This document shows, piece after piece, positions 171 through 26,619 of a stretch of DNA of 64,000 nt (position 1 is the first letter of the stretch; every line of letters begins with the position of its first letter). Under the pieces are notes generated by a model. That model was not told where the DNA came from. It made no database searches and was given only the letters and a program-made list of their open reading frames with translations. The translations under genes were made by a program, and so were the position numbers. The DNA lies in assembly GCF_001676615.1 (NCBI RefSeq), contig NZ_LYXZ01000043.1, positions 1 through 64,000 on the forward strand. The letters run 5' to 3'. The stretch comes from Labrys sp. WJW. GTDB lineage: Bacteria > Pseudomonadota > Alphaproteobacteria > Rhizobiales > Labraceae.

Positions 171-262
171 TCCGTCATTGCGAGCGCAGCGGAGCAATCC
201 AGGAGCCGTAAACTCTATGCCTTCAAGCTCCTGGATTGCTCCGCTGCGCTCGCAATGACGGA
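171..262. repeat. 35-bp perfect inverted repeat, copy 1
   Basis: Arms at 171-205 and 228-262 are exact reverse complements separated by 22 bases. The arm core reads GTCATTGCGAGCGCAGCGGA. The same element occurs at 5654-5742 with two substitutions in one arm, each matched by the complementary change in the other arm. This looks like a REP or MITE-type intergenic element rather than a unique terminator. Confidence 0.8.
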
Positions 263-300
263 TCAGCCTTTACGCATCATGGCATTATGGTAGCCCCGCA

Positions 301-1281
301 TCACTCCTTCCTGGCGCCAAAGGCGTCGAGAGTATGCTCTGCGCTGGCAATGGTGGGAGTGGCGACCTCGCCGGAGTCGAGATAGAGAATGCGCCCTTCC
401 CGGGCCGGCTTGAGGAACTTGTCCCAGCCCGGCATGATCTTGTCGAGGCGGGCTCGGATCGCCGCTTCCGAGCGGTCCTTCTCGGCATAGCTGTTCATGA
501 TCACCAGAAGATCGGGATCGGCGCGGCCGAAGATCTCCGGGCTCAGCGGCGTGGCGAAGATCGAGCCGAGGCCTTTGCCGGCCCCCATGCCGTCCACCTT
601 GGCGGGATGATAGCCGAGATCCTCCAGGGCCTGAATCGCGCCCGAGATCTCACCGACCAAGTTGACCTGGTCATGCACGATGACGGCCATGTAAGTCCGC
701 TCCCGCTCGCTGGGCGGCAGCTTGGCCCTGAGGGCGGCGACACGGTCGAGATAGGCCTTTTTCCGCGCTGCGAATTCATCCTGCCGACCGAGAAGCCTGG
801 CCAGATCCTCCTCGACGCCGATGCCGCGCGTCCTGCCGGTACTGGCCTTTTGCAGATAGACCGGGGCAATAGCCGAGAGCTGACCGGCCTTGTCGACATC
901 GCGCTCCGTGCCGATGATCAGGTCGGGATCGAGCTTACGCACTTTTTCGAGATCGATCTGGCCGACCGCCCCGATGCCGGTCGGCTTGGGGCCTTTTTTC
1001 GCCAAGACCGTGTCGATGAAGTCGACGGCGGTGAGCATCCGCCCGTCGTCGGAGCGGCCATAGCTGCCCGTGACGTCGACGCCGAGGTCCAGAAGCGGCA
1101 GCCCCAGAAGCGGCTCATGCAGCACAATGATCCGTTTCGGATCCTGGGGAATGGTGACGGAACGCCCGGTATCGTCTGTCACCGCGCGGTCCCCTGCCAG
1201 TGCCGTCTGCGCGCCGGCCAAAGCCATCTGTGCCGCCAGCATGGCCGGGATCAAAACGGCCCATCGCATAGTGTTGCGCAT
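301..1281 (-). CDS. iron-siderophore ABC transporter substrate-binding protein
   Basis: Periplasmic binding protein of the FepB/FecB type (PF01497-like), 326 residues, expected to capture a ferric chelate and deliver it to the two FecCD permeases encoded just upstream. Residues 1 to about 30 form a Sec signal peptide ending near ALAG. The mature part starts with the family pattern VTDDTGRSVTIPQDPKRIIVL, with PDLIIGTE further on. It is the last gene of the four-gene minus-strand operon, 11 bases after the permease stop. The chelate cannot be deduced from sequence. Family assignment is strong; iron as substrate is inferred from family and partners. Confidence 0.85.
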   Translation of the reverse strand: MRNTMRWAVLIPAMLAAQMALAGAQTALAGDRAVTDDTGRSVTIPQDPKRIIVLHEPLLGLPLLDLGVDVTGSYGRSDDGRMLTAVDFIDTVLAKKGPKPTGIGAVGQIDLEKVRKLDPDLIIGTERDVDKAGQLSAIAPVYLQKASTGRTRGIGVEEDLARLLGRQDEFAARKKAYLDRVAALRAKLPPSERERTYMAVIVHDQVNLVGEISGAIQALEDLGYHPAKVDGMGAGKGLGSIFATPLSPEIFGRADPDLLVIMNSYAEKDRSEAAIRARLDKIMPGWDKFLKPAREGRILYLDSGEVATPTIASAEHTLDAFGARKE

Positions 1282-1292
1282 GGTCTTGCCTT

Positions 1293-2357
1293 TCAGTGTG
1301 TCCGAAACAGTTTGAGCGCCCTTAGGCGCAGGGAGAGGATGAAGAGCGGCACGCCGACCAAGGTGAGGCCCAGTCCGAGCGGCATGGCGAGCTCGCCGGC
1401 CACGGCCCTCGTCAGCCCGTCGGCCGCTATCACCAGGACCCCGCCCATCAGCCCGGCCAGGAAGAGCCTCGCCCGCGCCAGCGCGGGTGAGAGGAAGCCG
1501 ACCAGCTGAGGCGCCAGCACGCCCAGGAACATCAGCGGGCCCACGGCGGTGACGGCGGCTGCCCCCAGCAGCACGGCGAGCACGAGCACGATCGGCCGCG
1601 ACCAGCCGATCGGCTCGCCCAGCGCCATCGCCATCTCCTCGCCGAGCTCATAGGGGCCGAGGGCGTGCCCGGCCAGGAAGGAGGCGGGAAGGCTGAGCAG
1701 GAACCAGGGGGCCAACGCGGCGATCCCCGCCCAGCTCGCCTGGAACAGCGACCCCGCCAGCCAGCTCGACAGGGCGTAGGAGGTTTCGCTCGGCGTGTAG
1801 AGGATGAGCAGCGAGGCGATCGAGGACAGCACGGTCTCGATCGCGATGCCCATCAAGAGGATGGCGAGGCCGTTCGAACGCTCGCGCCCGACCAGGAAAA
1901 GCAGCGCCAGCGCCACGCCGAGCCCTCCCCCCAGCGCCGCCAGGGGAACCAGGGCCTTTGGCGCCGTCGGAGCATAGATCAGGAGCAGCATGATCATGAT
2001 CATCGAGCCCTGGCTGAGTCCCAGCAGCCCCGGATCGGCGAGAGGATTACGCGTGAGCGACTGCAGCATCGAGGCGGCCATCGCCACCAGCCAGCCGGCA
2101 AGAAAACCTGTGACAATGCGAGGCAGCCGGACATCCCACAAGGCATAGGCCTTGTCGGGATCGAGCGGCGCGGCGCCGAGGGCAGCGGCAAGGTCGCCCA
2201 GCCCGGCCTTGATCGATCCCGTGCCGAGCGACAGTGCCGTCAAGGCGATGGCAGCCAGGATCAGGAAGAAGCCGGCATAGAGATTGCCGAGCCGGATCTG
2301 CAGGCCGCCGGGCCAGCGCAGCACGGCCTTGCCGTCGACAGCCCGCGCCAGCCTCAC
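1293..2357 (-). CDS. iron chelate ABC transporter permease (FecCD family)
   Basis: Integral membrane permease, 354 residues from a GTG start, with roughly ten hydrophobic segments and the FecCD signature SLTRNPLADPGLLG near residue 85. I chose the GTG because it overlaps the stop of the upstream permease as GTGA; the longer open frame continues into unrelated sequence inside the previous gene. With the permease encoded at 2354-3367 it should form a heterodimeric channel in the inner membrane. An IS or frameshift is not seen. Substrate is a ferric chelate by family, not proven. Confidence 0.85.
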   Translation of the reverse strand: MRLARAVDGKAVLRWPGGLQIRLGNLYAGFFLILAAIALTALSLGTGSIKAGLGDLAAALGAAPLDPDKAYALWDVRLPRIVTGFLAGWLVAMAASMLQSLTRNPLADPGLLGLSQGSMIMIMLLLIYAPTAPKALVPLAALGGGLGVALALLFLVGRERSNGLAILLMGIAIETVLSSIASLLILYTPSETSYALSSWLAGSLFQASWAGIAALAPWFLLSLPASFLAGHALGPYELGEEMAMALGEPIGWSRPIVLVLAVLLGAAAVTAVGPLMFLGVLAPQLVGFLSPALARARLFLAGLMGGVLVIAADGLTRAVAGELAMPLGLGLTLVGVPLFILSLRLRALKLFRTH

Positions 2358-3367
2358 GACGGGCTCCTCGCGGCCGTGCCGAGATAATAGCGCCGGACGA
2401 TCATGGCGAAGACCACGCCGCCCATGAGGTCCATGAGCACGCCGGTGTGCAGGACATAGGGTTTGAAGGCCTCGCGCGCGGCAAGGTCCGCCAGCAAAGT
2501 GAGGCCTGCGCCGCAGACGGCGCAGGCCGGCAGGCCGAGCTTGAAGCCGCCGCCGACGAAGGGCCGGACCAGATGCGGCACCACCAGACCGACGAAGCCG
2601 ATCGGCCCGCAGATCGCCACGGCCGAGCCGGCGGCGAGCGCCACAGCCGTCAGGGCGAGGCGCGAAACCCTGATAACGTCGACGCCGAGCGACGTGGCCT
2701 TGCCGTCGCCGAGGGCGATCACAGTGAGCGGCCGGGCCAGCAATTGCAGCCCAACCAACCCGATCAGGCCGATCCACCAGAAGCGCAACAGGCGGTCGGC
2801 ATAGACATGGTTGATGTTGCCGCTCACCCAGCCGAGGAAATCCATGCGCCGGGCCGGATCGGAGAGCAGGAAGGCATTGGCTATGCCGATGAAGAACATC
2901 GAGACCAACGCACCGGCCAGGATGAGCGCCAGGCCGCGCGGATCATGCGACAGTCCGGCAAGCCGGGCCACCAGCAGGCTGGTGGCAAACCCGGCCAGGG
3001 CGCCGGCGAGGGCCGCAAAGCCCTGGGCATCGAGGCCGAAATCGAAAAGATAGGCGCCGGCGATGACGAAGGCCGTGGCGCCCGCATTGATCCCCAGGGT
3101 CGAGGGAGAAGCGAGCGGGTTGCGGGTCAATCCCTGCAGGACGAGGCCGCCGCAAGCCGTCGCTGCGCCTGCATAGATCGCGATCAGCGCCCGCGGCAGC
3201 CTCTGATAGATGACGACATAGTCGTCATAGCTCGCCGGCTCGAAGCGCAGGATGGCTCCGACCACCTCGGACAATGCAATGGCCTCGGCCCCCAGGCTCA
3301 GAGTGGCGACGAGGAGCGCAATGAGCGCCGCCAGCGCGGCGGCGAGAAACAGCCAGCGTCGGATCAT
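2354..3367 (-). CDS. iron chelate ABC transporter permease (FecCD family)
   Basis: Second FecCD-type permease, 337 residues, hydrophobic throughout, with the signature LQGLTRNPLASPSTLGINAG near residues 78-97 and the conserved GPIGFVGLVVPHLVR segment near residue 230. It overlaps the ATPase gene by four bases (ATGA) and the next permease by four bases, so the operon is probably translationally coupled. It supplies one half of the transmembrane pore. Confidence 0.88.
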   Translation of the reverse strand: MIRRWLFLAAALAALIALLVATLSLGAEAIALSEVVGAILRFEPASYDDYVVIYQRLPRALIAIYAGAATACGGLVLQGLTRNPLASPSTLGINAGATAFVIAGAYLFDFGLDAQGFAALAGALAGFATSLLVARLAGLSHDPRGLALILAGALVSMFFIGIANAFLLSDPARRMDFLGWVSGNINHVYADRLLRFWWIGLIGLVGLQLLARPLTVIALGDGKATSLGVDVIRVSRLALTAVALAAGSAVAICGPIGFVGLVVPHLVRPFVGGGFKLGLPACAVCGAGLTLLADLAAREAFKPYVLHTGVLMDLMGGVVFAMIVRRYYLGTAARSPS

Positions 3368-4167
3368 GCCGGAACCGGCTTTTCCGCTTGCGCGCGCGGC
3401 AGGCAGACAAGCCGGCCCTGCCTCTCGAAGATGTCGACGTCGAGATCGAACACCCGGCCGACATTGGCTGAGGTCATGACCTTCTCGATCGGTCCCTTGG
3501 CGATCACCTGCCCTCCATGCAGCATCACTGCCTCGTCCGCGAAGGTGGTCGCCAGATTGATGTCGTGCAGCACCATGACGACGGTCTTGCCCTGGTCGAG
3601 AGCAAGGTCCCGCACCAGCTCGAGCACGGCATATTGATATTTCAAGTCGAGATGGTTCACCGGCTCGTCCATCAAAATGATGGGGGTGTCCTGGGCCAGC
3701 ACCATGGCGATCCAGGCGCGTTGCCTTTGGCCGCCGGAAAGTGAGGTAAGCGGCCGATGCGCCATATCGGCAAGGCCCACTCTTTCGAGAGCCTGCTGGA
3801 ACAGCAGCCGGTCACGCGCGCTCGGGCCTGTGATCGCCGACGTGCGGGCATAGCCGGCCAGTTCGATCAGCTCGCCCAGCGTCATATAGTCGGGACAGTG
3901 GCTGTCCTGCGGCAGGTAGGCGATCTCGCGGGCGAGCGCCTTGCGCCCGATGGTCCGGATCGGCTGTCCCGCCAGGGTGATCTCGCCGGCCCCGACGGGC
4001 AGGAAGCCCATGATCGCCTTCAGCAGGGTCGATTTTCCGCACCCATTCGGTCCGATCAGGACATTCAGGCGTCCAGGCTCGAAATCGACCGACACGCCCC
4101 GCAAGACGGGCTGCCCGCCATAGCCGGCCACCACATTGTTCGTCCTGAGCACCGTGTAATCATCCAA
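3364..4167 (-). CDS. iron chelate ABC transporter ATP-binding protein
   Basis: ATPase of the FepC/FecE/FhuC family, 267 residues. Visible motifs are Walker A GPNGCGKST, Q-loop in YLPQDSHCP, signature LSGGQRQRAW, Walker B PIILMDEP and the switch histidine in VMVLHDINLA. It is the first gene of the minus-strand operon, so the order is ATPase, permease, permease, binding protein, which is unusual only in that the binding protein comes last. It energises uptake of the chelate at the inner face of the cytoplasmic membrane. Confidence 0.9.
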   Translation of the reverse strand: MDDYTVLRTNNVVAGYGGQPVLRGVSVDFEPGRLNVLIGPNGCGKSTLLKAIMGFLPVGAGEITLAGQPIRTIGRKALAREIAYLPQDSHCPDYMTLGELIELAGYARTSAITGPSARDRLLFQQALERVGLADMAHRPLTSLSGGQRQRAWIAMVLAQDTPIILMDEPVNHLDLKYQYAVLELVRDLALDQGKTVVMVLHDINLATTFADEAVMLHGGQVIAKGPIEKVMTSANVGRVFDLDVDIFERQGRLVCLPRAQAEKPVPA

Positions 4168-4286
4168 CGCAAATCACGCTTGAATACAGATTAAGTTACG
4201 GTAAATCATCACGCAATTCTAAAATTGAAATAGAGATACTTTAAAATAGTTCAATACTGCACCGATTGGAGGTCAAACAACAAGGT
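4168..4286. promoter_or_regulatory. divergent promoter region, iron transporter / monooxygenase
   Basis: This A+T-rich spacer separates the ATPase gene (minus) from the monooxygenase gene (plus). It contains the inverted repeat CAATTCTAAAATTG at 4214-4227, which resembles in A+T content, but does not match, known iron-responsive boxes of the group (Irr or RirA). A GGAGG sits at 4268-4272 ahead of the plus-strand start. No specific regulator can be named. Confidence 0.45.
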
Positions 4287-5603
4287 ATGGAAATCAAAAG
4301 AAGATTGCATATCGGGCTTTCTTTGGCTCCGACTTGGCTGAGTGGCGATGGTTGGCGGCGCTTAGACAGCGACATCGAGAATATTTACTCTGATGAATTC
4401 TATCTGGACATTGCCAAACGGGCTGAGGCGGCCAGGCTGGATTTCGTCTTCCGGCCCGACACGCTTTTCCTCGATCCCCATGCGCTCGAAACCGGCCCCG
4501 GCTTCGGCAGCCTCGATCCCACCATCCTGCTGGCGACCATGGCGCGCGAAACCAGCCATATCGGCCTGCTCACCACCATCTCCACCACCTTCAATTCGCC
4601 CTATGTGGTGGCGCGCCAGCTGCAATCCCTCAACTGGCTGAGCAAGGGCCGGGTCGGCTGGAACATCGTCACGGCACTGGACGGCAACGAGAATTTCGGC
4701 CTGCCGGCCATGCCCTCGGCCGGGGAACGCTATGAGCGTGCCGCCGAATTCACGCAAATCGTGCGCAGGCTCTGGGCGAGCTATCCGCAGGACGCCCTGA
4801 AGCAGGATCGCGAGAGCGGCCGCTATGCCGATTCAGCCCTCGTGCGGCCGATCGATCACGTGGGCGCCCGTTTCAGCGTCAAGGGGCCGCTCAATCTGCC
4901 GGCCTATGGCACATCCTCGATTCCGCTGATCCAGGCCGGCGCTTCGCCGACGGGTCGCGATTTCGCCGCTTCCGTCGCCGACGCGATCTTCGCCTCGACC
5001 CCCGACATGGCAGCCGCGCTGGAGTTGCGCAGCGATCTCAGGCAGCGCGCACTCGGCCATGGCCGCAGAGCCGACGACATTCGCGTGCTGCCGGGCCTCA
5101 GCCTCTATCTCGCTTCCAATCGGAGCGAGGCGCGGGCACTCTTTGCACAGACCCATGCCCGCGCCGATACGGGGCGCAGGTTCAAGGCCATCCGGGACAT
5201 GACGGGCCTCGACCTCTCGCACTGGCCTGACGACCGCCGCGTCACTGCGGCCGATCTGCCTGAGGTGACCCCGGCATTGCGCAGCCGCACCCATGCGGAA
5301 CTCCTGCTTCGCCTGATCCGCAACGAACAGCCGACGGTCACCGAACTCCTGACCCGACCCGAGGTGATCGGCTCGGCACATTGGCGCGTCATCGGAACGG
5401 CGCAGGACGCCGCCGGGCAGGTCCGGCAATGGGCGAGCGCCGGCGCGATCGACGGCTTCGTCATCCTGCCGGGCGGATCGGCCGAAGCGCTCCGGCTGGC
5501 CCTCGAGGATCTCGTGCCTCAGCTGACCGAGGCAGGGTTGTTTCGGCAGACGTATCGTGGATCGACTTTCGCCGATCATCTCAGGGACGATGGCGGCGCC
5601 TGA
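4287..5603 (+). CDS. FMN-dependent monooxygenase, NtaA/SnaA/DszA family
   Basis: Flavin-dependent (bacterial luciferase-like) monooxygenase of 438 residues that would use FMNH2 from a separate reductase and O2. Family marks are LDPTILLATMARET, THIGLL-like TSHIGLLTTISTTFNSPY near residue 100, and GWNIVTA near residue 130. The ATG at 4287 is preferred over the in-frame TTG at 4266, because the TTG overlaps the GGAGG ribosome-binding site. Relatives cleave nitrilotriacetate, EDTA, sulfones or sulfonates. Being divergent from a ferric-chelate importer suggests oxidation of the chelator, but this is inference. No reductase gene is adjacent. Confidence 0.8.
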   Translation: MEIKRRLHIGLSLAPTWLSGDGWRRLDSDIENIYSDEFYLDIAKRAEAARLDFVFRPDTLFLDPHALETGPGFGSLDPTILLATMARETSHIGLLTTISTTFNSPYVVARQLQSLNWLSKGRVGWNIVTALDGNENFGLPAMPSAGERYERAAEFTQIVRRLWASYPQDALKQDRESGRYADSALVRPIDHVGARFSVKGPLNLPAYGTSSIPLIQAGASPTGRDFAASVADAIFASTPDMAAALELRSDLRQRALGHGRRADDIRVLPGLSLYLASNRSEARALFAQTHARADTGRRFKAIRDMTGLDLSHWPDDRRVTAADLPEVTPALRSRTHAELLLRLIRNEQPTVTELLTRPEVIGSAHWRVIGTAQDAAGQVRQWASAGAIDGFVILPGGSAEALRLALEDLVPQLTEAGLFRQTYRGSTFADHLRDDGGA

Positions 5604-5653
5604 AGCTCGATATGCCGCAATACCAACGGTATTGATGCTTGACCGACCAAGCA

Positions 5654-5742
5654 GCGTCATTGCGAGCGTAGCGAAGCAATCCAGGACTTCTAGACGCGGT
5701 GGCCATGGCTCCTGGATTGCTTCGCTACGCTCGCAATGACGC
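5654..5742. repeat. 33-bp perfect inverted repeat, copy 2
   Basis: Arms at 5654-5686 and 5710-5742 are exact reverse complements with a 23-base spacer. The core reads GTCATTGCGAGCGTAGCGAA, differing from the copy at 171-262 at two positions, both compensated in the opposite arm. It lies between convergent genes, where it could also end transcription. Confidence 0.8.
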
Positions 5743-5780: not shown

Positions 5781-6161
5781 TCAGCCATATTGCGCCAGGC
5801 CGTGGCCGAGGGACCAGTTCACCTTGGCAACCTCGACGAGGCTGACGAAGACGTCTTCGGACCGAATGCCGGGATTCTCCGCAAGGCGCTCTGCGATCCG
5901 TCGGAACAAGGCCCTTTTCTGCGCCTCGCTACGCGTATTGCTTACGGTGAGCTGGATCAGCACGAGGTCGTCGCTGCGGGCAACGTCGAAATAGTGGGCG
6001 CCATAGCGGAAATTATCAGCCTCGTGCTCGGTGATGGTCATGAACTGATCGTCCTCGGGCACGTCGAAGGTCTCGCGCATGGCCTGGTAGAGGCCATCGA
6101 AGATTGCCTGGCGATAGGCTCGCGGCTTTCCGGCACGCATCGCGATGTGTGTAAGCGGCAT
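5781..6161 (-). CDS. tautomerase family protein
   Basis: Small protein of 126 residues resembling the 4-oxalocrotonate tautomerase/MIF-fold group, in particular the longer single-chain members. Proline follows the initiator methionine (MPLTHIAMRAG), the position of the catalytic N-terminal base after methionine removal. The body matches the family in tautomerase-like segments such as EDDQFMTITEHE and SEAQKRALFRRIAERL. It is divergent from a LysR regulator 86 bases away, which likely controls it. The physiological substrate is unknown. Confidence 0.8.
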   Translation of the reverse strand: MPLTHIAMRAGKPRAYRQAIFDGLYQAMRETFDVPEDDQFMTITEHEADNFRYGAHYFDVARSDDLVLIQLTVSNTRSEAQKRALFRRIAERLAENPGIRSEDVFVSLVEVAKVNWSLGHGLAQYG

Positions 6162-6212
6162 GGAGTTTCTCCTCTGTGATCGAATCGGAGCCTAGATGCT
6201 GCTCACTCATTT

Positions 6213-6237
6213 TGATATTCTATGAATATGCATATCA
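6213..6237. promoter_or_regulatory. candidate LysR operator (TGATAT-N13-ATATCA)
   Basis: An inverted repeat TGATAT..ATATCA spans the middle of the 86-base spacer between the tautomerase gene and its divergent LysR gene, with an inner ATTC-TAT-GAAT. Size, dyad and position fit a LysR-type T-N11-A site used for autoregulation and activation of the divergent gene. No footprint data are available. Confidence 0.5.
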
Positions 6238-6247
6238 GTAATAAGAG

Positions 6248-7111
6248 ATGGAAATGATAGAGCGACCGCTCGATCTCGATGCCGTCAGGGCTTTTGTGCA
6301 CATCGCCGACCTCGACAGCTTCACGCGGGCTGCCGAGGTCCTGCAGACGACGCAGGCCGCCGTCAGCCTGAAACTGAAGCGGCTGGAAGAAAGGCTCGGC
6401 TGCCGCCTCGTCGAGCGTACCCCCCGCTATGTACAGCTCTCACCCCAGGGCGCCGCCTTTCTCGAACCGGCCCGAGAACTCCTGGCCGGACATGAGCGTG
6501 CGCTCGCCGTCTTTGCGACCGCGCGCCAGCGTCTTACCATCGGCCTCAGCGATCATGTCGCCGGGCCCGACCTGCCGGCGCTGATCGCGCGCATGAACAC
6601 CCAGGACCCGCAGCTTCTGATCGAGATCCGCATCGGCTCCTCGGGAGACCTTTTGCAGAGCTTCGACCGGCGCGAGTTCGACAGTGTGATCGTGCGCCTC
6701 CATGCCGGCCGAAGCGATGGCGAGGTGATCGCCGAGGAGAAATTCGGCTGGTTTGCCGCACCCGACTGGCAGAAGCGGGCGGATGAACCCTTGCCCTTGG
6801 CGACGATGGCCGAACCCTGCGGCGTACGCGCGATGGCCGGCCGGCTGCTCGATGACGCTGGCCTGCCCTGGCGCGAGAGTTTCGTTGGCGGCGGGGTCGC
6901 CGCGGTGACGGCAGCGGTGATGGCCGGGCTCGGCATCGCTGCCCTGGCGCCGCGCATGCTGCCTCTCGGGGCCGTCGAGGTTGGCGCCAGGCTTGGCCTG
7001 CCCGAATTGCCGCGTCTGCCGGTGTTGCTGCATAGCCGGGTCAGGCATGAACGGCCGCGCCAGGCACTCGCCGCACTCGCGGCTGCCTTCCGTGCCGCCG
7101 TACGAGGATAG
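6248..7111 (+). CDS. LysR family transcriptional regulator
   Basis: DNA-binding regulator of 287 residues. The N-terminal winged helix-turn-helix (about residues 8-65) reads LDAVRAFVHIADLDSFTRAA and QAAVSLKLKRLEERLG; the rest is a LysR effector-binding domain. An alternative start is the ATG at 6254. It probably controls the divergent tautomerase gene across the dyad at 6213-6237. Effector unknown. Confidence 0.85.
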   Translation: MEMIERPLDLDAVRAFVHIADLDSFTRAAEVLQTTQAAVSLKLKRLEERLGCRLVERTPRYVQLSPQGAAFLEPARELLAGHERALAVFATARQRLTIGLSDHVAGPDLPALIARMNTQDPQLLIEIRIGSSGDLLQSFDRREFDSVIVRLHAGRSDGEVIAEEKFGWFAAPDWQKRADEPLPLATMAEPCGVRAMAGRLLDDAGLPWRESFVGGGVAAVTAAVMAGLGIAALAPRMLPLGAVEVGARLGLPELPRLPVLLHSRVRHERPRQALAALAAAFRAAVRG

Positions 7112-8133: not shown

Positions 8134-8154
8134 TTGTCGATTTCTTGTCGACAA
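8134..8154. promoter_or_regulatory. GntR operator O2 upstream of the DapA-family gene
   Basis: TTGTCGACAA at 8145-8154 repeats the core of the palindrome at 7281-7298, and a half site TTGTCGA lies at 8134-8140, in phase by one helical turn (11 bases). It is about 100 bases before the DapA-family start codon, a normal operator distance. This ties the regulator to that gene. Confidence 0.65.
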
Positions 8155-8252
8155 ATAAAATACAAAAGCGTATGAAGGTGCCGACGATAGGAATCGGCAC
8201 CCGTGCAGGACTGCGATCAAGCCTATCCCCCAGGCCAACAGAGGAGCTCGAA

Positions 8253-9215
8253 ATGAAGGCCAAGATTTTCTCCGGTGTCATTCCTGCGCTGATGACCCCG
8301 TGCAAGGCGGACCGCAGCCCGGATTTCGAGGCCCTCGTGCGCAAGGGCAAGCAGCTCATCGCCGACGGCATGTCGGCCGTGGTCTATTGCGGCTCGATGG
8401 GTGACTGGCCCCTTCTCACCGATGCCCAGCGCATGGAAGGCGTCGAGCGCCTGGTCAAGGCCGGCGTCCCGGTGATCGTCGGCACCGGCGCAGTCAATAC
8501 CGCTTCGGCGGTGGCCCATGCCGCCCACGCCCAGAAGGTCGGCGCCCAGGGTTTGATGGTGATCCCGCGCGTCCTGTCACGCGGTTCGGTCGTCGCGGCC
8601 CAGAAGCAGCATTTCAAGGCCATCCTCACCGCCGCCCCCGATCTGCCGGCCGTGATCTACAACAGCCCCTATTACGGCTTTGCCACGCGCGCCGACCTCT
8701 TCTTCGCCCTGCGCGCCGAGCACCCCAACCTGGTCGGCTTCAAGGAATTCGGTGGCCCGGCCGACATGCGCTATGCGGCGGAAAACATCACCAGCCGCGA
8801 CGACGGCGTCTCGCTGATGATCGGCGTCGATACCGCGGTGTTCCACGGCTTCGTCAATTGCGGCGCCACCGGTGCGATCACCGGCATCGGCAATGTCCTG
8901 CCCAAGGAAGTGATCCATCTGTGCAAGCTGTCCGAGGCCGCTGCTGCCGGCGACGTCGACGCCCGCCAGCGCGCACAGGAACTGGAGCAGGCTTTGGCCG
9001 TGCTCTCCTCCTTCGATGAAGGGCCAGACCTCGTCCTCTTCTTCAAGCACATGATGGTGGTGAAGGGCGACAAGGAATACACCCTCAACTTCAACGAGAC
9101 CGACGTGCTCTCCGACAGCCAGCGCGGCTATGCCGAGACCCAGCTCAAGCTGTTCGACACCTGGTATGCGCAGTGGAGCCGCCTCCCCGGCGCCGTGCAG
9201 AAATGCGCCGCCTGA
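8253..9215 (+). CDS. DapA-family lyase, probable pyrroline-4-hydroxy-2-carboxylate deaminase
   Basis: Class I aldolase-type protein of 320 residues in the dihydrodipicolinate synthase family. Schiff-base Lys164 lies in VGFKEFGG and the partner tyrosine, Tyr136, in AVIYNSPYYG. In hydroxyproline catabolism a member of this family (LhpC/HypD) deaminates and dehydrates the cyclic imine to 2-oxoglutarate semialdehyde, and the next dehydrogenase gene encodes exactly the following step. Start at 8253 has GAGGAG ahead; the longer frame from 8145 would begin inside the operator. Family certain; exact substrate inferred from neighbours. Confidence 0.82.
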   Translation: MKAKIFSGVIPALMTPCKADRSPDFEALVRKGKQLIADGMSAVVYCGSMGDWPLLTDAQRMEGVERLVKAGVPVIVGTGAVNTASAVAHAAHAQKVGAQGLMVIPRVLSRGSVVAAQKQHFKAILTAAPDLPAVIYNSPYYGFATRADLFFALRAEHPNLVGFKEFGGPADMRYAAENITSRDDGVSLMIGVDTAVFHGFVNCGATGAITGIGNVLPKEVIHLCKLSEAAAAGDVDARQRAQELEQALAVLSSFDEGPDLVLFFKHMMVVKGDKEYTLNFNETDVLSDSQRGYAETQLKLFDTWYAQWSRLPGAVQKCAA

Positions 9216-9239
9216 CGGCCTTGTAAGACTGCCGAACCG

Positions 9240-9268
9240 AAAGGGCCCTCCGGATCAGGAGGGCCTTT
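9240..9268 (+). terminator. hairpin terminator after the DapA-family gene
   Basis: AAAGGGCCCTC and GAGGGCCTTT pair with a one-base bulge around a short loop, ending in TTT, 25 bases after the stop codon. This fits a Rho-independent terminator, although the trailing T run is short. Confidence 0.7.
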
Positions 9269-9402
9269 GCATTTGTGGGGGCTATCGCGATCCATCTTCC
9301 CAGGCAGATATGTCTACCTGGGATAGCGGGAGAGTCGATTTCCCAAAGGCTGGCCTGTGATGACCAGGCTACATAATGTTTGACCGACTGAAGACATGTG
9401 TC

Positions 9403-9487
9403 CCTGGGACCGCCAGCATCCTGCTGGCTCTTTGACACATTGCGCTTGCTAGAAACAAAGAGCCAGCAGGATGCTGGCAGTCCCAGG
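9403..9487. repeat. 32-bp inverted repeat between convergent genes
   Basis: Arms 9403-9434 and 9456-9487 are reverse complements except for one position, with a 21-base spacer. The arm includes GCCAGCATCCTGCTGGCTC, itself partly palindromic. The right end TCCCAGGAAGAG also occurs near position 114, so it belongs to a repeat family of this genome. It could act as a bidirectional terminator for the convergent deaminase and Ldh2-type genes. Confidence 0.7.
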
Positions 9488-9498
9488 AAGAGTTGGCT

Positions 9499-10536
9499 TC
9501 AATCCACCGCAGCCAGGCCGAGGGCCAAGAGCCGGTCGAGCTGTTCGACTTCCGTACCGCTGAGGACGATGCCTTCCGCCTGCGACTTGGCTCGTGCCGC
9601 AAAGCGACGCTGGGACGGCAACCTGGCGCCCTGCCCGACGATCGCCTCGAACAAGGTCTCGGCACGGGCAAAGGGATCACCGGGCCGCCCCGCAGCGAAT
9701 TTCTCGGGCGAGAAGGCCAGGATCAGTTCGCCATGCGCCGGCGCCAGGGTCGTGGTGCCCAGGGCTTCCAACGCTTCGGGGCTGGTGAGATCCCCGATCA
9801 TGATGCCGGCCAGCAATTCGACCATCGTGCCGATCGCCGAGCCCTTGTGGCCGCCGAAGGGCAGCATGGCGCCGGCGAGGGCGGCTACCGGATCCGTCGT
9901 CGGCCTGCCCTCGGCGTCGATCGCCCAGCCCTCGGGCAACGGCTTGCCGGCCCGCCGGTGCAGTTCGATCTCGCCGCGCGCCGCGACGGAGGTGGCGAAG
10001 TCGAACACATAGGGCGGCTTGCCCTGACGCGGCCAGCCGAAGCCGAAGGGGTTGGTGCCGAGCAAGGGCTTGTTGCCGCCGGTGGGCGCCACGGCCGAAT
10101 AGCTGGGGCACATTACGAGGGCAGCGAGGCCCTGCTCCGTCACGGCCTCCACCTCAGGCCAGAGCGCCGAGAAGTGGGTGCAATCATTGATCACCAGCGC
10201 GGCCAGGCCATAGGTGCGGGCGCGCTCGACCAGGAGGGGCAGGCCGAGCTCGAAGGCCGGATTGGCAAAGCCTCCCTTGGCATTGACCTTGACGACGGCG
10301 GAGGCGTCCTCTGCCGACAGAACCGGCTCAGCGTCGGGGCGGACCTTGCCGGCCTTCACCGTGCGCAAGGCGCCCTCGATACGATAGATGCCATGTGATT
10401 TGCAGGCATCGCGCTCGCCCGCAACGATCACGCGCGTCACGGCTCCGGCCTGGTCGGCATTGAAGCCGGCCTTGCGGAAGATCGCCTCCACCTGCTCGCT
10501 CAGTTCCTTCGTCGTCAAAAGACGGCTGTCTGTCAT
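9499..10536 (-). CDS. Ldh2/malate dehydrogenase-family reductase, probable pyrroline-2-carboxylate reductase
   Basis: NAD(P)H-dependent oxidoreductase of 345 residues in the malate/L-lactate/ureidoglycolate dehydrogenase (Ldh2) family. Residues SHGIYRIEGAL near 46-56, NDCTHFSALWP, GTNPFGFGWP and GGHKGSAIGTMVELLAG are family landmarks. Members such as DpkA/LhpD reduce delta1-pyrroline-2-carboxylate to L-proline, the step after trans- or cis-3-hydroxyproline dehydration, and dehydratase candidates are encoded nearby. It is divergent from the semialdehyde dehydrogenase gene. A different 2-keto acid substrate is possible. Confidence 0.75.
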   Translation of the reverse strand: MTDSRLLTTKELSEQVEAIFRKAGFNADQAGAVTRVIVAGERDACKSHGIYRIEGALRTVKAGKVRPDAEPVLSAEDASAVVKVNAKGGFANPAFELGLPLLVERARTYGLAALVINDCTHFSALWPEVEAVTEQGLAALVMCPSYSAVAPTGGNKPLLGTNPFGFGWPRQGKPPYVFDFATSVAARGEIELHRRAGKPLPEGWAIDAEGRPTTDPVAALAGAMLPFGGHKGSAIGTMVELLAGIMIGDLTSPEALEALGTTTLAPAHGELILAFSPEKFAAGRPGDPFARAETLFEAIVGQGARLPSQRRFAARAKSQAEGIVLSGTEVEQLDRLLALGLAAVD

Positions 10537-10599
10537 GGCATGCCTTTCCCGGTCATCTGCGTGGCTGTCGATATCACGGCTTGATGATTAAAATACATA

Positions 10600-10621
10600 G
10601 TGTATACACAGAATCGACAAG
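10600..10621. promoter_or_regulatory. candidate GntR-type operator between divergent catabolic genes
   Basis: The perfect palindrome GTGTATACAC at 10600-10609 is followed by TCGACAAG at 10614-10621, which equals one half of the operator core found at 7281-7298. It sits between the divergent Ldh2-type and aldehyde dehydrogenase genes and could serve both. Confidence 0.4.
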
Positions 10622-10677
10622 CTCGTTTCAAAATTCGCGCTCGCACGACCCCGCTACAGTGATGGAAGGAATGGCAT

Positions 10678-12195
10678 ATGGGTTTCACTCCCACAGGCAA
10701 GCATCTTGTCGCAGGTGACTGGGTCGAGGGCGAAGGCTTCTTCGCATCGGCCCCCGCCCATGGGCCGGCCCACCAGTTTTCGATCGGCACGAGCGCGCTG
10801 GTGGATCGGGCCTGCGAAGCGGCGGAGGAAGCATTCTGGCATTTCGGCTATGCCAAGCGTTGGGAGCGCGCCGCCTTTCTGCGTGTTCTCGCCGACGAGA
10901 TCGAGGCTCGAGGCGAGGCGATCACCGAGATCGGCAGCCAGGAAACCGGTCTGCCCGTCGCGCGCCTGCAGGGGGAACGCGCCCGCACCACCGGCCAGTT
11001 CCGGCTCTTTGCCGATCATATCGAGTTGGGCGGTTATCTCGACCGCCGCGTGGATATGGCCTTGCCCGATCGCCAGCCGGCGCCGCGGCCCGAGATCCGC
11101 ATGATGCAGCGCCCCATTGGCCCGGTCGCGGTGTTCGGTGCCTCCAACTTCCCCCTCGCCTTCTCGACCGCCGGCGGCGATACCGCCGCCGCGCTTGCGG
11201 CCGGCTGCCCCGTGGTAGTCAAGGGGCATTCGGCCCATCCGGGAACGGGCGAGATCGTGGCCGAAGCGGTCAACGCCGCCATCCGCCGGAGTGGTATGCA
11301 TCCGGGTGTGTTCTCCCTGATCCAGGGCAATAGTCGCGAGATCGGCCAGGCCATCGTACAGCACCCCCTGATCAAGGCCGTCGGCTTCACCGGCTCGCTC
11401 GCCGGCGGCCGGGCGCTCTTTGATCTGTGCGCAGCCCGCCCCGAACCAATCCCCTTCTTTGGCGAGCTCGGATCGGTCAATCCGATGTTCCTGCTGCCCG
11501 AAGCGCTCAAGGCACGGCCCGAGGCCCTCGGCCAGGGTTGGGCGGCATCCCTCACGATGGGGGCCGGCCAGTTCTGCACCAATCCCGGCATCGCCATCGT
11601 AATCGACGGGCCCGATGCCGACCGCTTCACCGCCGCCGCCAGCGAGGCTCTTGGCAAAGTATCGCCGCAGGCCATGCTGTCGGACGGCATTGCCCGCTCG
11701 TATCATGAAGGCCAGGCCGGCATGACCGCACGCAATGCCGTGCGCGCCCTGCTGGCGACGCCGATGTCCGGTCGCGAAGCCTCGCCCAGCCTGTTCGAAA
11801 CCTCGAGCGAGCGCTTTGTCGCCGACCACGCGCTCGGCGAGGAGGTATTCGGGCCGCTTGGCCTCGTGGTGCGGGCATCGTCCCAGGAAGACATGGAGCG
11901 ATTGGCCCGCGCCTTCGTGGGGCAGTTGACCGCGACCATTCACATGGAACCAGCGGATCTCGCCGCCGCGCGCCGCCTGCTGCCCATCCTCGAGCGCAAG
12001 GCCGGGCGCGTGCTCGTCAACGGCTTTCCGACCGGCGTCGAGGTCGTCGATGCCATGGTGCATGGCGGCCCCTATCCGGCCTCGACCAATTTCGGTGCGA
12101 CCAGCGTCGGCACCCTGTCGATCCGGCGTTTCCTGCGGCCGGTGGCCTATCAGAACCTGCCCCAGGGCTTGTTGCCGGACGATCTGGACAGCTGA
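10678..12195 (+). CDS. 2-oxoglutarate semialdehyde dehydrogenase (aldehyde dehydrogenase family)
   Basis: NAD(P)+-dependent aldehyde dehydrogenase of 505 residues. Catalytic Cys300 sits in GAGQFCTNPGI and the general base Glu263 in FGELGSVNPM; the cofactor fold includes VFGASNFPLAFSTAGGD and GFTGSLAGG. The SVNPM and FCTNPG segments are typical of the ketoglutarate-semialdehyde dehydrogenase group. It would oxidise 2-oxoglutarate semialdehyde to 2-oxoglutarate, the last step of 4-hydroxyproline breakdown. GGAAGGA at 10664-10670 is the ribosome-binding site. Confidence 0.85.
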   Translation: MGFTPTGKHLVAGDWVEGEGFFASAPAHGPAHQFSIGTSALVDRACEAAEEAFWHFGYAKRWERAAFLRVLADEIEARGEAITEIGSQETGLPVARLQGERARTTGQFRLFADHIELGGYLDRRVDMALPDRQPAPRPEIRMMQRPIGPVAVFGASNFPLAFSTAGGDTAAALAAGCPVVVKGHSAHPGTGEIVAEAVNAAIRRSGMHPGVFSLIQGNSREIGQAIVQHPLIKAVGFTGSLAGGRALFDLCAARPEPIPFFGELGSVNPMFLLPEALKARPEALGQGWAASLTMGAGQFCTNPGIAIVIDGPDADRFTAAASEALGKVSPQAMLSDGIARSYHEGQAGMTARNAVRALLATPMSGREASPSLFETSSERFVADHALGEEVFGPLGLVVRASSQEDMERLARAFVGQLTATIHMEPADLAAARRLLPILERKAGRVLVNGFPTGVEVVDAMVHGGPYPASTNFGATSVGTLSIRRFLRPVAYQNLPQGLLPDDLDS

Positions 12196-12429
12196 GGTAA
12201 TCCGTCCGCGCTCTGATCGTCTCCGAATGAGAGCATCCATCATCCCCGGCACGGCCGAAGACCGTGACCCTCTCCGCTCGCCAGGATGAGAGCGTTGCCG
12301 GAATAATTTATGCCCACACATAAAATTCTTTTTGTATTCATGTTGTATTTTTAGTTGATTTCGCACGTGAAACCGCAATAGTGGCTCCGCCGTGAAAAAC
12401 ACGAGCCAATGCAAAGAGAGAGCGTGAGA

Positions 12430-13236
12430 ATGAGGAAATCGGTCGCCGCCTTCGGCCTCATGGCCGCCATCGCCATGGTCAGCCCCGCAAAGGCGGACAA
12501 GCTGGACGACATCATCGCTTCGGGAACGCTACGCTGCGCCGTCGTGCTCGACTTTCCGCCCATGGGCGCGCGCGACGCCAACAACAATCCGATCGGCTTC
12601 GACGTCGATTACTGCAACGATCTGGCCAAGGCCCTCGGCGTGAAGGCCGAGATCGTCGAGACCCCCTTCCCCGAGCGTATTCCGGCCCTGATGTCCGGCC
12701 GTGTCGATGTCGGCGTCGCCTCGACCTCCGACACGCTGGAGCGCGCCAAGACCGTCGGCATGACCATCCCCTATTTCGCCTTCGAGATGGCGGTGACGGC
12801 CAATGAGAAGTCGGGCGTCAAATCCTTCGATGACATGAAGGGCAAGGTCGTTGGCGCCACTGCCGGCACCTATGAAGCCATCGCGCTGGAAAAGCAGGTC
12901 AAGGCCTGGGGTTCCGGCGAGTTCCGTCCCTACCAGACCCAGGCAGACGTCTTCCTCGCCCTCAGCCAGGGCCAGCTCGACGCCACCGTCTCGACCTCCA
13001 CGGTCGCGCAGGCCAATGTGAAGACCGGCAAGTTCGCCGGCATCGCCGTGGTCGGCAAGGCGCCCTTCGACATCGACTATGTGTCGCTGTTCACCAATCG
13101 CGAGGAATACGGCCTGATCAACTATCTCAACCTGTTCATCAACCAGCAGGTTCGCACCGGCCGCTATGCCGAACTCTACAAGAAGTGGGTGGACGAGAAC
13201 GTTCCCAATCTCACCGTCAACGGCTCCTATCGCTGA
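12430..13236 (+). CDS. polar amino-acid ABC transporter substrate-binding protein
   Basis: Periplasmic binding protein, 268 residues, of the lysine/arginine/ornithine or glutamine family (SBP_bac_3). A signal peptide of about 22 residues ends in PAKA, and the mature chain begins DKLDDIIASGTLRCAV. The ATG at 12430 gives a normal signal peptide; the ATG at 12409 would add seven residues. As the first gene of the transporter and hydroxyproline enzyme operon it probably binds hydroxyproline or a related imino acid, which is inference from context. Confidence 0.83.
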   Translation: MRKSVAAFGLMAAIAMVSPAKADKLDDIIASGTLRCAVVLDFPPMGARDANNNPIGFDVDYCNDLAKALGVKAEIVETPFPERIPALMSGRVDVGVASTSDTLERAKTVGMTIPYFAFEMAVTANEKSGVKSFDDMKGKVVGATAGTYEAIALEKQVKAWGSGEFRPYQTQADVFLALSQGQLDATVSTSTVAQANVKTGKFAGIAVVGKAPFDIDYVSLFTNREEYGLINYLNLFINQQVRTGRYAELYKKWVDENVPNLTVNGSYR

Positions 13237-13241
13237 TCTGA

Positions 13242-13304
13242 CCGTTTCACCGGCGGCGCGCTGGCAACCCACGCGCCGCCGATCCTGCTCGAGAGGTGAA
13301 ACGG
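13242..13304 (+). promoter_or_regulatory. nested mRNA hairpin covering the permease ribosome-binding site
   Basis: An outer stem pairs CCGTTTCACC (13242-13251) with GGTGAAACGG (13295-13304), and an inner stem pairs CGGCGGCGCG (13251-13260) with CGCGCCGCCG (13272-13281), all perfect. The outer right arm contains the AGGTGA ribosome-binding site of the permease that starts at 13306. The structure can protect the binding-protein message and lower permease translation. Confidence 0.7.
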
Positions 13305-13305
13305 C

Positions 13306-13971
13306 ATGTTCAAATATGCCTTCCATTGGAACCAGGCCCTGAAGGCGCTGCCGCAGCTCCTTGACGGCGCCCTGGTCACGCTGCAGATCGCGCTCCTGTC
13401 GATGGCGATCGGCCTCGCCATCGCCATCCTCCTCACTCTGTTCCGCCTGTCCGGCAACCGCCTGCTCGGCGGCTTCGCCACGGCCTGGGTCGAGGTGGCG
13501 CGCAACACGCCGGCGCTGTTCCAGATCTACATGGCGCATTTCGGCCTCGGTAATTTCGGCCTCCACCTGACGCCCTTCGCCGCGCTGCTCGCCGGCATCG
13601 CCTTCAACAATGCCGGCTATCTGGCCGAGAATTTCCGCGGTGCCCTCAAGGCCATTCCGGACACGCAGGCCCGCGCCGGCCGCTCGCTCGGCATGACCTC
13701 GCTGCAAGCCTTCCGGATGATCGTCGTGCCGCAAATGCTGCGCGTCGCCTTCCTGCCCGCCACCAACCAGATGGTCTGGGCCATCCTGATGACCTCGCTC
13801 GGCGTCACCGTGGGCATGAACACGGACCTTGCCGGCGTCACGCAGGAGCTGAACGCCCGTTCCTTCCGCACCTTCGAATTCTTCGCGCTGGCCGCGGTGA
13901 TCTACTATTTGATCGCCAAGGCCATCACTCTGGCAGCCCGGGCGGTCGCCTGGCGCATGTTCCGCTATTGA
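13306..13971 (+). CDS. polar amino-acid ABC transporter permease
   Basis: Inner-membrane permease of the HisM/GlnP type, 221 residues, with about five hydrophobic segments. The binding-protein-dependent (EAA-like) loop is seen around DTQARAGRSLGMTSLQAFRM. It pairs with the permease encoded next. The two genes follow the binding protein and precede the ATPase in one operon. Confidence 0.87.
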   Translation: MFKYAFHWNQALKALPQLLDGALVTLQIALLSMAIGLAIAILLTLFRLSGNRLLGGFATAWVEVARNTPALFQIYMAHFGLGNFGLHLTPFAALLAGIAFNNAGYLAENFRGALKAIPDTQARAGRSLGMTSLQAFRMIVVPQMLRVAFLPATNQMVWAILMTSLGVTVGMNTDLAGVTQELNARSFRTFEFFALAAVIYYLIAKAITLAARAVAWRMFRY

Positions 13972-13982
13972 GAGGGCTGATC

Positions 13983-14636
13983 ATGTTCAACACCGCCCTC
14001 ACCTGGAGCGACCTCGCCTTCCTCGCCCAAGGCGCCGGCATGACGCTGGCGGTCACCGCAGTCTCGGTTGCTGCCGGCACCATCCTCGGCATCCTCTTCG
14101 GCGTGATCCGTGTCCAGCTCGGCCCCTATTGGTCGGTGCCGCTGACCTTCCTGCTCGACATCTTCCGCTCGGTGCCGCTGCTGATCCAGCTCGTGCTGGC
14201 CAATGCCTTCCAGTCGATCGCGCGGCTGGGCTGGCCGCCCTTCACCACTTCCTGCGTGGTGCTGAGCCTGTATACGGCCGCCTACTGCACCGAGATCGTG
14301 CGCGGCGGCATCGGCTCGGTCCCGGCGACCACCCGCCGGGCGGCGCGTTCGCTTGGCATGAGCTGGTGGCAGGACATGCGCTACATCGTGGCGCCGCTGG
14401 CCATACGCGTCTCGCTGCCCTCCTGGATCGGCCTGACGCTCGGCGTCATGAAGGATTCCGCTCTCGTGCTCTGGCTCGGCCTGATCGAGCTCCTGCGCGC
14501 CTCGCAGATCCTGGTCACCCGCCTGCAAGAACCCCTGTTCATCCTGATGATCTGCGGCGCGATCTACTTCCTCATCAGCTTTCCCATCGCCCGGCTGGGC
14601 GGCTATCTCGAAAGACGGTGGTCCCCCAATGATTGA
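13983..14636 (+). CDS. polar amino-acid ABC transporter permease
   Basis: Second HisQ/GlnP-type permease, 217 residues, with five hydrophobic segments and the loop VPATTRRAARSLGMSWWQDM near residues 115-135. The ATG at 13983 has AGAGGG ahead of it. A TTG at 13968 overlaps the preceding stop and would add five residues. The 3' end overlaps the ATPase start by eight bases, indicating coupling. Confidence 0.87.
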   Translation: MFNTALTWSDLAFLAQGAGMTLAVTAVSVAAGTILGILFGVIRVQLGPYWSVPLTFLLDIFRSVPLLIQLVLANAFQSIARLGWPPFTTSCVVLSLYTAAYCTEIVRGGIGSVPATTRRAARSLGMSWWQDMRYIVAPLAIRVSLPSWIGLTLGVMKDSALVLWLGLIELLRASQILVTRLQEPLFILMICGAIYFLISFPIARLGGYLERRWSPND

Positions 14637-15351
14637 GATCCAGAACGTCCGCAAATCCTTCGCCGCTCTCGAAGTGCTGAAGGGCATCAACCTCACCGTC
14701 GACAAGGGCGAGGTGGTCAGCATCATCGGCGGATCCGGCTCGGGCAAGTCGACGCTTCTCACCTGCATCAACGGGCTGGAACCGATCAATGCGGGCCGGA
14801 TCACCATCGACGGCACCGAGGTCCACGCCAAGAGCACCGACCTCAACAGGCTGCGCCGGAAGGTCGGCATCGTCTTCCAGCAATGGAACGCCTTCCCGCA
14901 TCTGACCGTGCTGGAAAACGTCATGCTCGCCCCGCGCAAGGTGCTCGGCATGGCCAAGGCCAAGGCCGAGGAAATCGCGGTCAAGCAGCTCAGCCATGTC
15001 GGGCTGGCCGAGAAGCTTTCGGTCTATCCCACCCGCATGTCCGGCGGCCAGCAGCAGCGCATGGCGATCGCCCGCGCCCTTGCGATGTCGCCCGAATATA
15101 TGCTGTTTGACGAGGTGACATCAGCACTCGACCCGATGCTCGTCGGCGAAGTGCTCGATACACTCAAGATGCTGGCCGAAGAGGGCATGACGATGATCTG
15201 CGTCACCCATGAAATGGCGTTCGCCCGCGACGTCTCCAACCGGGTGGCATTCTTCCACCAGGGCGTGATGGCCGAGATCGGTACGCCGGACCAGCTCTTC
15301 GGCGCGCCGCAAAATCCCGAAACCCAGAAATTCCTGGCGAGCGTGCGGTGA
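14629..15351 (+). CDS. polar amino-acid ABC transporter ATP-binding protein
   Basis: ATPase of 240 residues in the GlnQ/HisP family. Motifs are Walker A GGSGSGKST, Q-loop in IVFQQWNAFPH, signature MSGGQQQRMAIARAL, Walker B YMLFDEVTSALDP and the switch histidine in MICVTHEM. It energises the importer encoded at 12430-14636. The stop overlaps the FAD dehydrogenase start (GTGA), placing transporter and enzymes in one operon. Confidence 0.9.
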   Translation: MIEIQNVRKSFAALEVLKGINLTVDKGEVVSIIGGSGSGKSTLLTCINGLEPINAGRITIDGTEVHAKSTDLNRLRRKVGIVFQQWNAFPHLTVLENVMLAPRKVLGMAKAKAEEIAVKQLSHVGLAEKLSVYPTRMSGGQQQRMAIARALAMSPEYMLFDEVTSALDPMLVGEVLDTLKMLAEEGMTMICVTHEMAFARDVSNRVAFFHQGVMAEIGTPDQLFGAPQNPETQKFLASVR

Positions 15352-16592: not shown

Positions 16593-16607
16593 CGAAAAGG
16601 TCCTGCC

Positions 16608-17609: not shown

Positions 17610-17626
17610 GCCGGTTTCCTGGTGAA

Positions 17627-19318: not shown

Positions 19319-19328
19319 GGACCCTTCC

Positions 19329-20357: not shown

Positions 20358-20460
20358 GAGGCGTGCCGCCGCAAGTCGTCGGTGCCGTCATTGACCCGAA
20401 ACCTGCCGTCTCTATCATCGGGAATCGATAGTGATTTTCGAAGAAACGAGCACTGTGGCA

Positions 20461-22806: not shown

Positions 22807-22908
22807 GCGCGACGCTCCGATTGGGCTTGGCTCGCTGGACCACCAGGCTCCTCCCCGCGATCTGAATTTAAGTGCATGAAATTTGGATTTATTTGGTAAG
22901 AAAATGCG

Positions 22909-24841: not shown

Positions 24842-24848
24842 GGCCGCC

Positions 24849-26582: not shown

Positions 26583-26619
26583 GGCCGCACCATTCCCCAA
26601 TTTCAAGAAGGAGAGCACC

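Follow-up and report, generated by a model that had tools for sequence, protein, structure and literature searches.

Why should a ferric-siderophore importer share its promoter region with a flavin mononucleotide (FMN)-dependent monooxygenase? The question is raised by five genes at the edge of contig NZ_LYXZ01000043.1 (C81) of the 7.63 Mb draft genome of Labrys sp. WJW, the first 64,000 bases of which were analysed here and are referred to as the window. A tightly packed operon encoding a substrate-binding protein, two FecCD permeases, and a FecE-type ATPase occupies 301–4167 of the minus strand, with the monooxygenase gene transcribed divergently from it at 4287–5603 of the plus strand. From their sequence context, these five genes appear to be the distal end of a catecholate siderophore cluster, and we put the probability that the monooxygenase is a cytoplasmic oxygenase attacking the imported catecholate ligand at roughly 0.6.

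A catecholate siderophore cluster on abutting contigs

The importer set is complete by Pfam and NCBIfam, with a Peripla_BP_2 protein, two FecCD permeases, and an ATPase in one operon (Table 1). A preliminary description of this stretch had proposed a four-gene FecCD-type importer divergent from an NtaA/DszA-type monooxygenase, and both the family assignments and the coordinates confirm it. Gaps of 11 bases (binding protein and permease A) and 2 bases (permeases A and B) separate the importer genes, and permease B and the ATPase overlap by 4 bases. The second gene encodes a permease of 352 residues, corrected from a 494-residue open frame, which is 95% identical over its full length to its counterpart in Labrys sp. 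KNU-23, the closest named relative, whose importer and monooxygenase proteins are 88–95% identical to those of the window. The top NCBIfam match of the ATPase is FecE, at 239.3 bits and below the cutoff of 375. Modelling of the binding protein (predicted local distance difference test score, pLDDT, of 79.3) places FitE as the closest solved chain (Z = 23.0), with HtsA, FepB, and ViuP tied at Z = 18.7–19.9, a modelled fold which would point to a siderophore without singling out which one.

The binding protein gene ends 300 bases from the first base of C81, and thus of the window. The preliminary description noted no adjacent TonB receptor, which holds for the window but not for the locus, as the receptor is missing from the window because C81 begins beside the binding protein gene, a contig-edge artefact. 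A receptor query returns a single orthologue in the genome (53% identity) at C80:5267–7360, ~7 kb past the importer on the abutting contig. In the contiguous relative G175, which matches the KNU-23 locus (L001) with full identity across 10,321 bases, positions 1–14569 of C80 correspond to 18855–33438 and positions 288–5605 of the window to 33503–38799, with 65 bases between them. Beyond the opposite end of C80 comes contig C97, as judged from the gene order of G175, from which the order C97–C80–C81 was taken.

Read in this order, the cluster begins with a non-ribosomal peptide synthetase (NRPS), a VibH-like condensation protein, isochorismate synthase, 2,3-dihydroxybenzoate (DHB)-AMP ligase, an isochorismatase with a carrier domain, and DHB dehydrogenase, followed by a SIP reductase, a carrier protein, a thiolation-condensation (T-C) protein, the TonB receptor, and a LysR regulator, and then by gcvT-gcvH-gcvP (gcvH assigned by eye) and sdaA, before reaching the importer and monooxygenase of the window. 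Structures of heterocyclisation (Cy) domains are among the PDB matches of the NRPS. On gene content, C97–C80–C81 hold a DHB cluster of vibriobactin/agrobactin layout, with the functions of VibF split over two proteins, and we infer from its genes that its product is a catecholate siderophore. The earlier reading of the importer as one for a ferric chelate is likewise supported, the chelate being a siderophore. Of the loci examined, only Labrys has gcvT-H-P and sdaA genes within its siderophore cluster, where they separate the receptor from the importer (8502–14568 of C80, or L054).

Conservation of the importer and monooxygenase pairing

The pairing of importer and monooxygenase is conserved to an extent well in excess of chance. 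A search of genome contigs that used only the monooxygenase as query yielded 23 relatives, plasmid records yielded 19 more, of which 9 were taken for context, and further genome searches completed a set of 38 loci (the window, L001–L032, L057, L058, L061, L062, and L070). Duplicates were merged, with L055 and L056 extending L001, and L059, L060, and L063 repeating L010, L006, and L002. One more plasmid record (L071) lies outside the counts, and L070 (Paracoccus denitrificans) was chosen for its T-C NRPS protein and is hence not an unbiased draw. Flanks are mostly 8–15 kb, and shorter on one side in L007, L011, and L016, such that a gene called absent is absent from that stretch, and the presence of near kin (L008/L009/L016, L012/L015, L005/L006, and L027/L028/L029) means that the counts are not independent events.

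FecCD importers lie beside the monooxygenase orthologues in 35 of the 38 loci, the exceptions being two Paenibacillus loci and L057; the preliminary description had made its reading depend on the pair recurring in other genomes, and it does recur. These importers fall into two types, type I being orthologous to that of the window (17 loci), and type II (18 loci) having permeases and an ATPase ~30–40% identical to those of type I and a binding protein of another kind, which in the single case tested is a FepB equivalog (378.8 bits, cutoff 205). Receptors of one family are found in 30 of the 38 loci (12/17 type I, with the window's counted via C80, and 18/18 type II), the most divergent copies being those of the two Marinobacter loci (33–34%). 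Where gene spacing was read in type II loci, the monooxygenase gene comes after that of the ATPase or of the receptor on the same strand, and in the Shinella loci L027 and L029 it shares 4 bases with the importer ATPase gene. Within the Labrys genome, which has 18 Bac_luciferase and 24 FecCD matches, the present pair is the sole one less than 60 kb apart, with the next closest on one contig separated by 64.6 kb.

That a general LLM-family enzyme, scavenging sulfur or other compounds, stands beside the importer by happenstance would be in keeping with its nearest solved relatives (CmoJ/YtnJ and BdsA/DszA), but is very improbable, as across the 38 loci the enzyme is linked to a single receptor family and to two importer types that are not orthologous, the linkage spans Alphaproteobacteria, Marinobacter, and in part Paenibacillus, and no sulfur gene was recognised in the clusters. 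The monooxygenase gene is patchily distributed. Within the order it is present in 8 of 297 genomes (its own included), within the genus in 2 of 5, and in a draw from the class in 2 of 385, a pattern that fits horizontal spread.

In Paenibacillus, a pyridine-nucleotide reductase and a siderophore-type binding protein come after the monooxygenase, as annotated by profiles in L020 only (9372–11449), where the reductase is a thioredoxin-reductase/FNR-like flavoprotein; the flavoprotein reductase may be the electron donor of the Paenibacillus monooxygenase.

One enzyme clade with two importers, and a probable role in uptake rather than synthesis

In a tree of 41 proteins, 35 locus enzymes form one clade (support 100/100), apart from six paralogues from the Labrys genome, whose scores against the window protein reach no more than 199 bits, compared with at least 341 bits for clade members. 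The tree leaves out 3 of 44 rows, namely L023 (its frames being broken), L059 (which repeats L010), and L016 (cut by a contig end), and the long branches of L030 and L067 make their placement unsure. Type I and type II importers are interspersed within the clade, with well supported branches forcing at least three changes per label, where importer swaps are counted from the tree labels and are not a reconciled history. The two importer types thus seem, on this tree, to have been exchanged while the monooxygenase stayed, which suggests that the enzyme follows the ligand and not one importer.

Biosynthetic genes accompany the monooxygenase far less regularly. DHB-AMP ligase was found in 9 of 30 monooxygenase-bearing genome entries at E≤1e-100 (7 above the family cutoff), or 8 of 27 distinct genomes once three repeated entries are allowed for (G285 = G681, G270 = G685, and G402 = G677). 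It occurs in only 1 of the 11 type II genomes, that of L012, at 707.9 bits and under the cutoff. Full-length Fes, the hydrolase of the enterobactin system, is likewise present in 1 of these 11 (G692), and since ligase and Fes are each missing from 10 of the 11, the monooxygenase would serve uptake and use of a siderophore and not its synthesis. No full-length Fes was found in the genome of the window (best match 45.8 bits, partial; cutoff 222), nor was a Fes gene seen in the loci. A FepB-type importer without Fes leaves a ligand-opening step to be accounted for, for which the monooxygenase is the constant candidate.

These counts bear on whether the monooxygenase could instead be a tailoring enzyme of siderophore biosynthesis, oxidising an oxazoline or polyamine or hydroxylating the product. 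Vibriobactin-type NRPS parts are found in the same stretch in 8 of the 38 loci, window included, and some LLM enzymes of the family are biosynthetic (7e36, of the streptoseomycin pathway). We nevertheless consider such a role unlikely, as the majority of loci are uptake-only, DHB-AMP ligase is nearly absent from the type II genomes, and type II loci couple the monooxygenase to importer or receptor genes, not to NRPS genes. Furthermore, of 32 plasmid records carrying the T-C protein, 30 of them listed, 20 have no monooxygenase at E≤1e-80, these being from Vibrio, Acinetobacter, Rhodovulum, and E. coli.

Family, fold, and active site of the monooxygenase

The monooxygenase belongs to the NtaA/DmoA family TIGR03860, scoring 363.7 bits against a cutoff of 279.7 (NCBIfam). 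Its start is more likely the ATG at 4287 than the TTG at 4266, which would give a protein of 445 residues, because GGAGG lies just upstream of the ATG and relatives align from there. Among PDB sequences, the top full-length match is CmoJ/MoxC (YtnJ), at 292.5 bits with a profile of a 19-sequence alignment and ~30% identity, and identity to the chelate monooxygenases NtaA and EmoA is 29–31%. The structural model (pLDDT 83.8, predicted template modelling score 0.84) matches BdsA (5xkc, Z = 42.2), CmoJ/YtnJ (Z = 41.5), nitrilotriacetate (NTA) monooxygenase (3sdo, Z = 41.0), and EmoA (5dqp, Z = 38.6), with riboflavin lyase falling within Z = 38–42 and RutA lower (5wan, Z = 31.3).

Six O2-pocket residues are described for DszA (PMC11134501). 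Five of these, F56, T106, N135, A228, and F246, correspond to F55, T97, N126, A217, and F235 of the Labrys enzyme, as read by eye off the printed alignment with 5tlc as the DszA row, and are invariant in 19 of 19 aligned sequences; the sixth, Phe12, is not retained.

Retention of this pocket bears on whether the monooxygenase could act as a flavin-dependent ferric-siderophore reductase, passing electrons of reduced FMN (FMNH2) to iron without oxygenating the ligand. Ferric chelates can be reduced by free reduced flavins, and with SIP present in just 8 of the 38 stretches another reductase would be needed. A pure reductase would not, however, need the O2-pocket residues, and Labrys has a SIP as well, making this a quite improbable role for the enzyme.

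Promoter region

Regulatory motifs were counted in 12 of the 15 type I intergenic regions, L001, L006, and L021 having been dropped as near-copies. Two motifs, GCAATTC and TA(T/A)ACTA, each occur in 5 of these 12 regions, a frequency reached in 0 of 500 shuffles, whereas the RirA-type TGA-N9-TCA is absent from 12 of 12, window included. The window region holds a lone TTTAGAA half-site, a motif seen in 1 of 12 loci and no commoner there than in shuffled sequence.

The intergenic regions of L005 and L011 contain a perfect palindrome, CTTCTGCA-T-TGCAGAAG. Upstream of the monooxygenase in L005, L006, and L011, a perfect 17-base palindrome, CTTCTGCATTGCAGAAG, stands beside the common TATACTAT element, and looks, by its sequence, like an operator for some regulator.

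Proposed function

We propose that the TonB receptor and FecCD importer would carry a ferric catecholate into the cytoplasm, where SIP and/or the monooxygenase would release the iron. The FMNH2 for the monooxygenase could come from a reductase encoded elsewhere, or from SIP. With O2, the enzyme would attack the ligand, most plausibly at its 2,3-dihydroxybenzamide part, which is common to both kinds of ligand implied, namely the polyamine-catecholates and, via the FepB-type importer, those resembling enterobactin. In genomes lacking Fes, the monooxygenase may take a Fes-like role, destroying or weakening the chelator after import. We infer both the oxidation of the ligand and the bond attacked; breaking or altering the siderophore inside the cell is probably what such an enzyme does, although this is not an established route to siderophore iron. 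Attack on the dihydroxybenzamide part appears chemically reasonable by analogy because RutA cleaves an amide via a flavin-N5-peroxide, with DszA and HcbA1 assigned to the same class (PMC7662398).

Several observations weigh against this proposal. A SIP reductase is present in the same Labrys cluster, such that iron release would not clearly require the monooxygenase, and full-length Fes (>200 bits) is found in 5 of 28 genomes (G679, G685, G688, and G696 of type I, and G692 of type II). The fold itself says nothing on substrate, as the nearest solved relatives use unrelated substrates, and no known iron-regulator box (RirA, Irr, or Fur) was recognised in the intergenic region. No Flavin_Reduct gene was found on C80, C81, or C97, with 8 matches elsewhere in the genome, in agreement with the absence of an adjacent flavin reductase in the preliminary description; the adjoining NtaB/EmoB-type reductase of the NtaAB and EmoAB systems is thus missing here. 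In L057 (G244) the monooxygenase has no importer within 9 kb. Additionally, the copy in the parabactin-type cluster of P. denitrificans HAMBI_2443 (L070, 15600–17100) is broken by a short deletion relative to L030. The second copy of this strain is intact and lies beside a type II importer (L026), and Paracoccus sp. MA (L030) retains a 413-residue open frame for the monooxygenase of its parabactin-type cluster. Production of parabactin, brucebactin, and enterobactin by P. denitrificans PD1222, increased under iron limitation, is reported in PMC13251462.

A nutritional role, in which the ligand or pieces of it would be degraded for carbon or nitrogen and not for iron, is about as unlikely as a tailoring role. 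An IclR regulator weakly similar to PcaR/PcaU in 21 of the 38 loci, the gcvT-H-P and sdaA genes between receptor and importer in Labrys, and the benzoate/catechol genes adjoining the cluster in Paracoccus sp. MA would all suit such a use. Siderophores are, however, scarce as nutrients, and the import machinery is of the high-affinity iron type; the IclR gene was not seen in the Labrys or Marinobacter loci (L017 and L019), and conservation of further ligand-catabolic genes was not observed.

Should the monooxygenase indeed attack the imported catecholate, it could represent a third route to catecholate iron besides hydrolysis by Fes and reduction by SIP, in which an FMNH2/O2-dependent “siderophore oxygenase” would cleave the amide or the dihydroxybenzoyl unit by flavin-N5-peroxide chemistry resembling that of RutA. 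This more specific idea, drawn from analogy, is offered tentatively and is more doubtful than the general one. If true, such an enzyme would stand to siderophores as heme oxygenase does to heme, its substrates being the amide-backbone siderophores that are beyond Fes, along with enterobactin-like ones from other bacteria.

Aminopolycarboxylate ligands (NTA, ethylenediaminetetraacetate (EDTA), or rhizobactin-like) were considered from the name of the enzyme family, and were dropped because of the DHB cluster and the FepB-type binding protein of the partner importer. The preliminary description, which had named NTA and EDTA as chelators broken down by related monooxygenases, is partly supported, being right in outline and wrong on the kind of chelate.

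Features of the locus and its surroundings

Coordinates are collected in Table 1. The two palindromic repeat elements flank the five genes exactly, have nearly identical arms, and both lie outside the blocks aligning to G175. Their arm pattern, found at 18 places in the genome, marks a REP-like (repetitive extragenic palindromic) family, which may have caused the contig break.

Table 1. Features of the window and of the adjoining siderophore cluster (positions refer to the window unless a contig is given).
Feature	Location	Strand	Evidence or remark
Palindromic repeat element, 36-base arms	171–262		Left of the five genes, close to contig end
Periplasmic siderophore-binding protein, 326 residues	301–1281	−	Peripla_BP_2, 48 bits; signal peptide by eye
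FecCD permease A, 352 residues, TTG start	1293–2351	−	FecCD, 211.5 bits
FecCD permease B, 337 residues	2354–3367	−	FecCD, 241.3 bits
ATP-binding cassette (ABC) ATPase, 267 residues, TTG start	3364–4167	−	ABC_tran, 115.2 bits
Divergent promoter region	4168–4286		Contains GCAATTC, common to other type I loci
FMN-dependent LLM monooxygenase, siderophore-locus clade, 438 residues	4287–5603 (alternative start 4266)	+	TIGR03860
Second palindromic element copy, 33-base arms	5654–5742		Right flank
NRPS, 1500 residues	Start of cluster		Condensation-type and adenylation (A) domains (Cy-Cy-A; Pfam); DxxxxDxxS at 137 and 609
Free amide synthase, condensation protein of 488 residues			Best PDB match VibH (1l5a, 8.8e-69)
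Isochorismate synthase (EntC)			TIGR00543, 315.8 bits, cutoff 224.75
DHB-AMP ligase (EntE)	C97:1125–2705		TIGR02275, 864.8 bits, cutoff 723.55
Isochorismatase (EntB)			Isochorismatase and PP-binding domains
DHB dehydrogenase (EntA)			NF006074, 366.6 bits, cutoff 312; scored on the G175 copy, C80 beginning inside the gene
Ferric-siderophore reductase, SIP	Close to receptor		PDB matches 4yhb and, lower down, ViuB
T-C NRPS protein			1013 residues

Beyond the monooxygenase, positions 5781–7111 hold a Tautomerase_2 gene (minus strand) and a LrhA-like LysR regulator (plus strand), part of which aligns to G175, with no iron link seen. Further along (8145–20357), an amino-acid-type ABC importer lies among genes whose translations alone resemble hydroxyproline-type catabolism (dihydrodipicolinate-synthase-like, proline-racemase-like, and D-amino-acid-oxidase-like).

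Comparison with known systems

A siderophore-linked LLM monooxygenase was not found in the titles and abstracts returned by searches of the open-licence literature, an outcome that leaves room for a published account elsewhere, and the term “monooxygenase” has a count of 0 in the available portions of PMC9409073, PMC9399729, PMC13251462, PMC8822346, PMC4145622, and PMC5739047. In the literature found, it is not settled how agrobactin, parabactin, and vibriobactin, which have amide backbones, are dismantled after import. The monooxygenase clade provides a named candidate for this step, and it tracks catecholate uptake loci also in genomes making no DHB siderophore, such that it could explain the use of others' siderophores by non-producing bacteria. 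A likely function is thereby suggested for proteins annotated so far only as NtaA/DmoA family monooxygenases.

Among the enzymes, NtaA and EmoA share with the Labrys protein the TIGR03860 family and the fold, but have little sequence identity to it and belong to aminopolycarboxylate systems with an adjoining flavin reductase, where the Labrys enzyme lies with a FecCD importer and a catecholate cluster. The flavin-N5-peroxide oxygenases RutA and DszA/BdsA are alike in fold and O2-pocket residues, but lack its siderophore-locus context. CmoJ/MoxC (YtnJ), whose context is sulfur compounds, is not known to be accompanied by a FecCD-type importer.

The Fep/Fes enterobactin system resembles the type II loci in its FepB-type importer, and differs in that these loci have the monooxygenase in place of Fes, which acts on ester backbones. 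The closest parallels to the cluster as a whole are the vib/viu genes for vibriobactin and the agrobactin and parabactin clusters, with which it shares the DHB genes, a VibH-like amide synthase, Cy-Cy-A and T-C parts, a ViuB-related SIP, a FecCD importer, and a TonB receptor. We take the Cy-Cy-A and T-C proteins of Labrys to be VibF split in two. We know of no such monooxygenase in Vibrio siderophore loci, and among the matches listed none of the Vibrio plasmids carrying the T-C protein has one at E≤1e-80. It is in the FMN monooxygenase, divergent from the importer operon, that the Labrys cluster departs from the vibriobactin loci.

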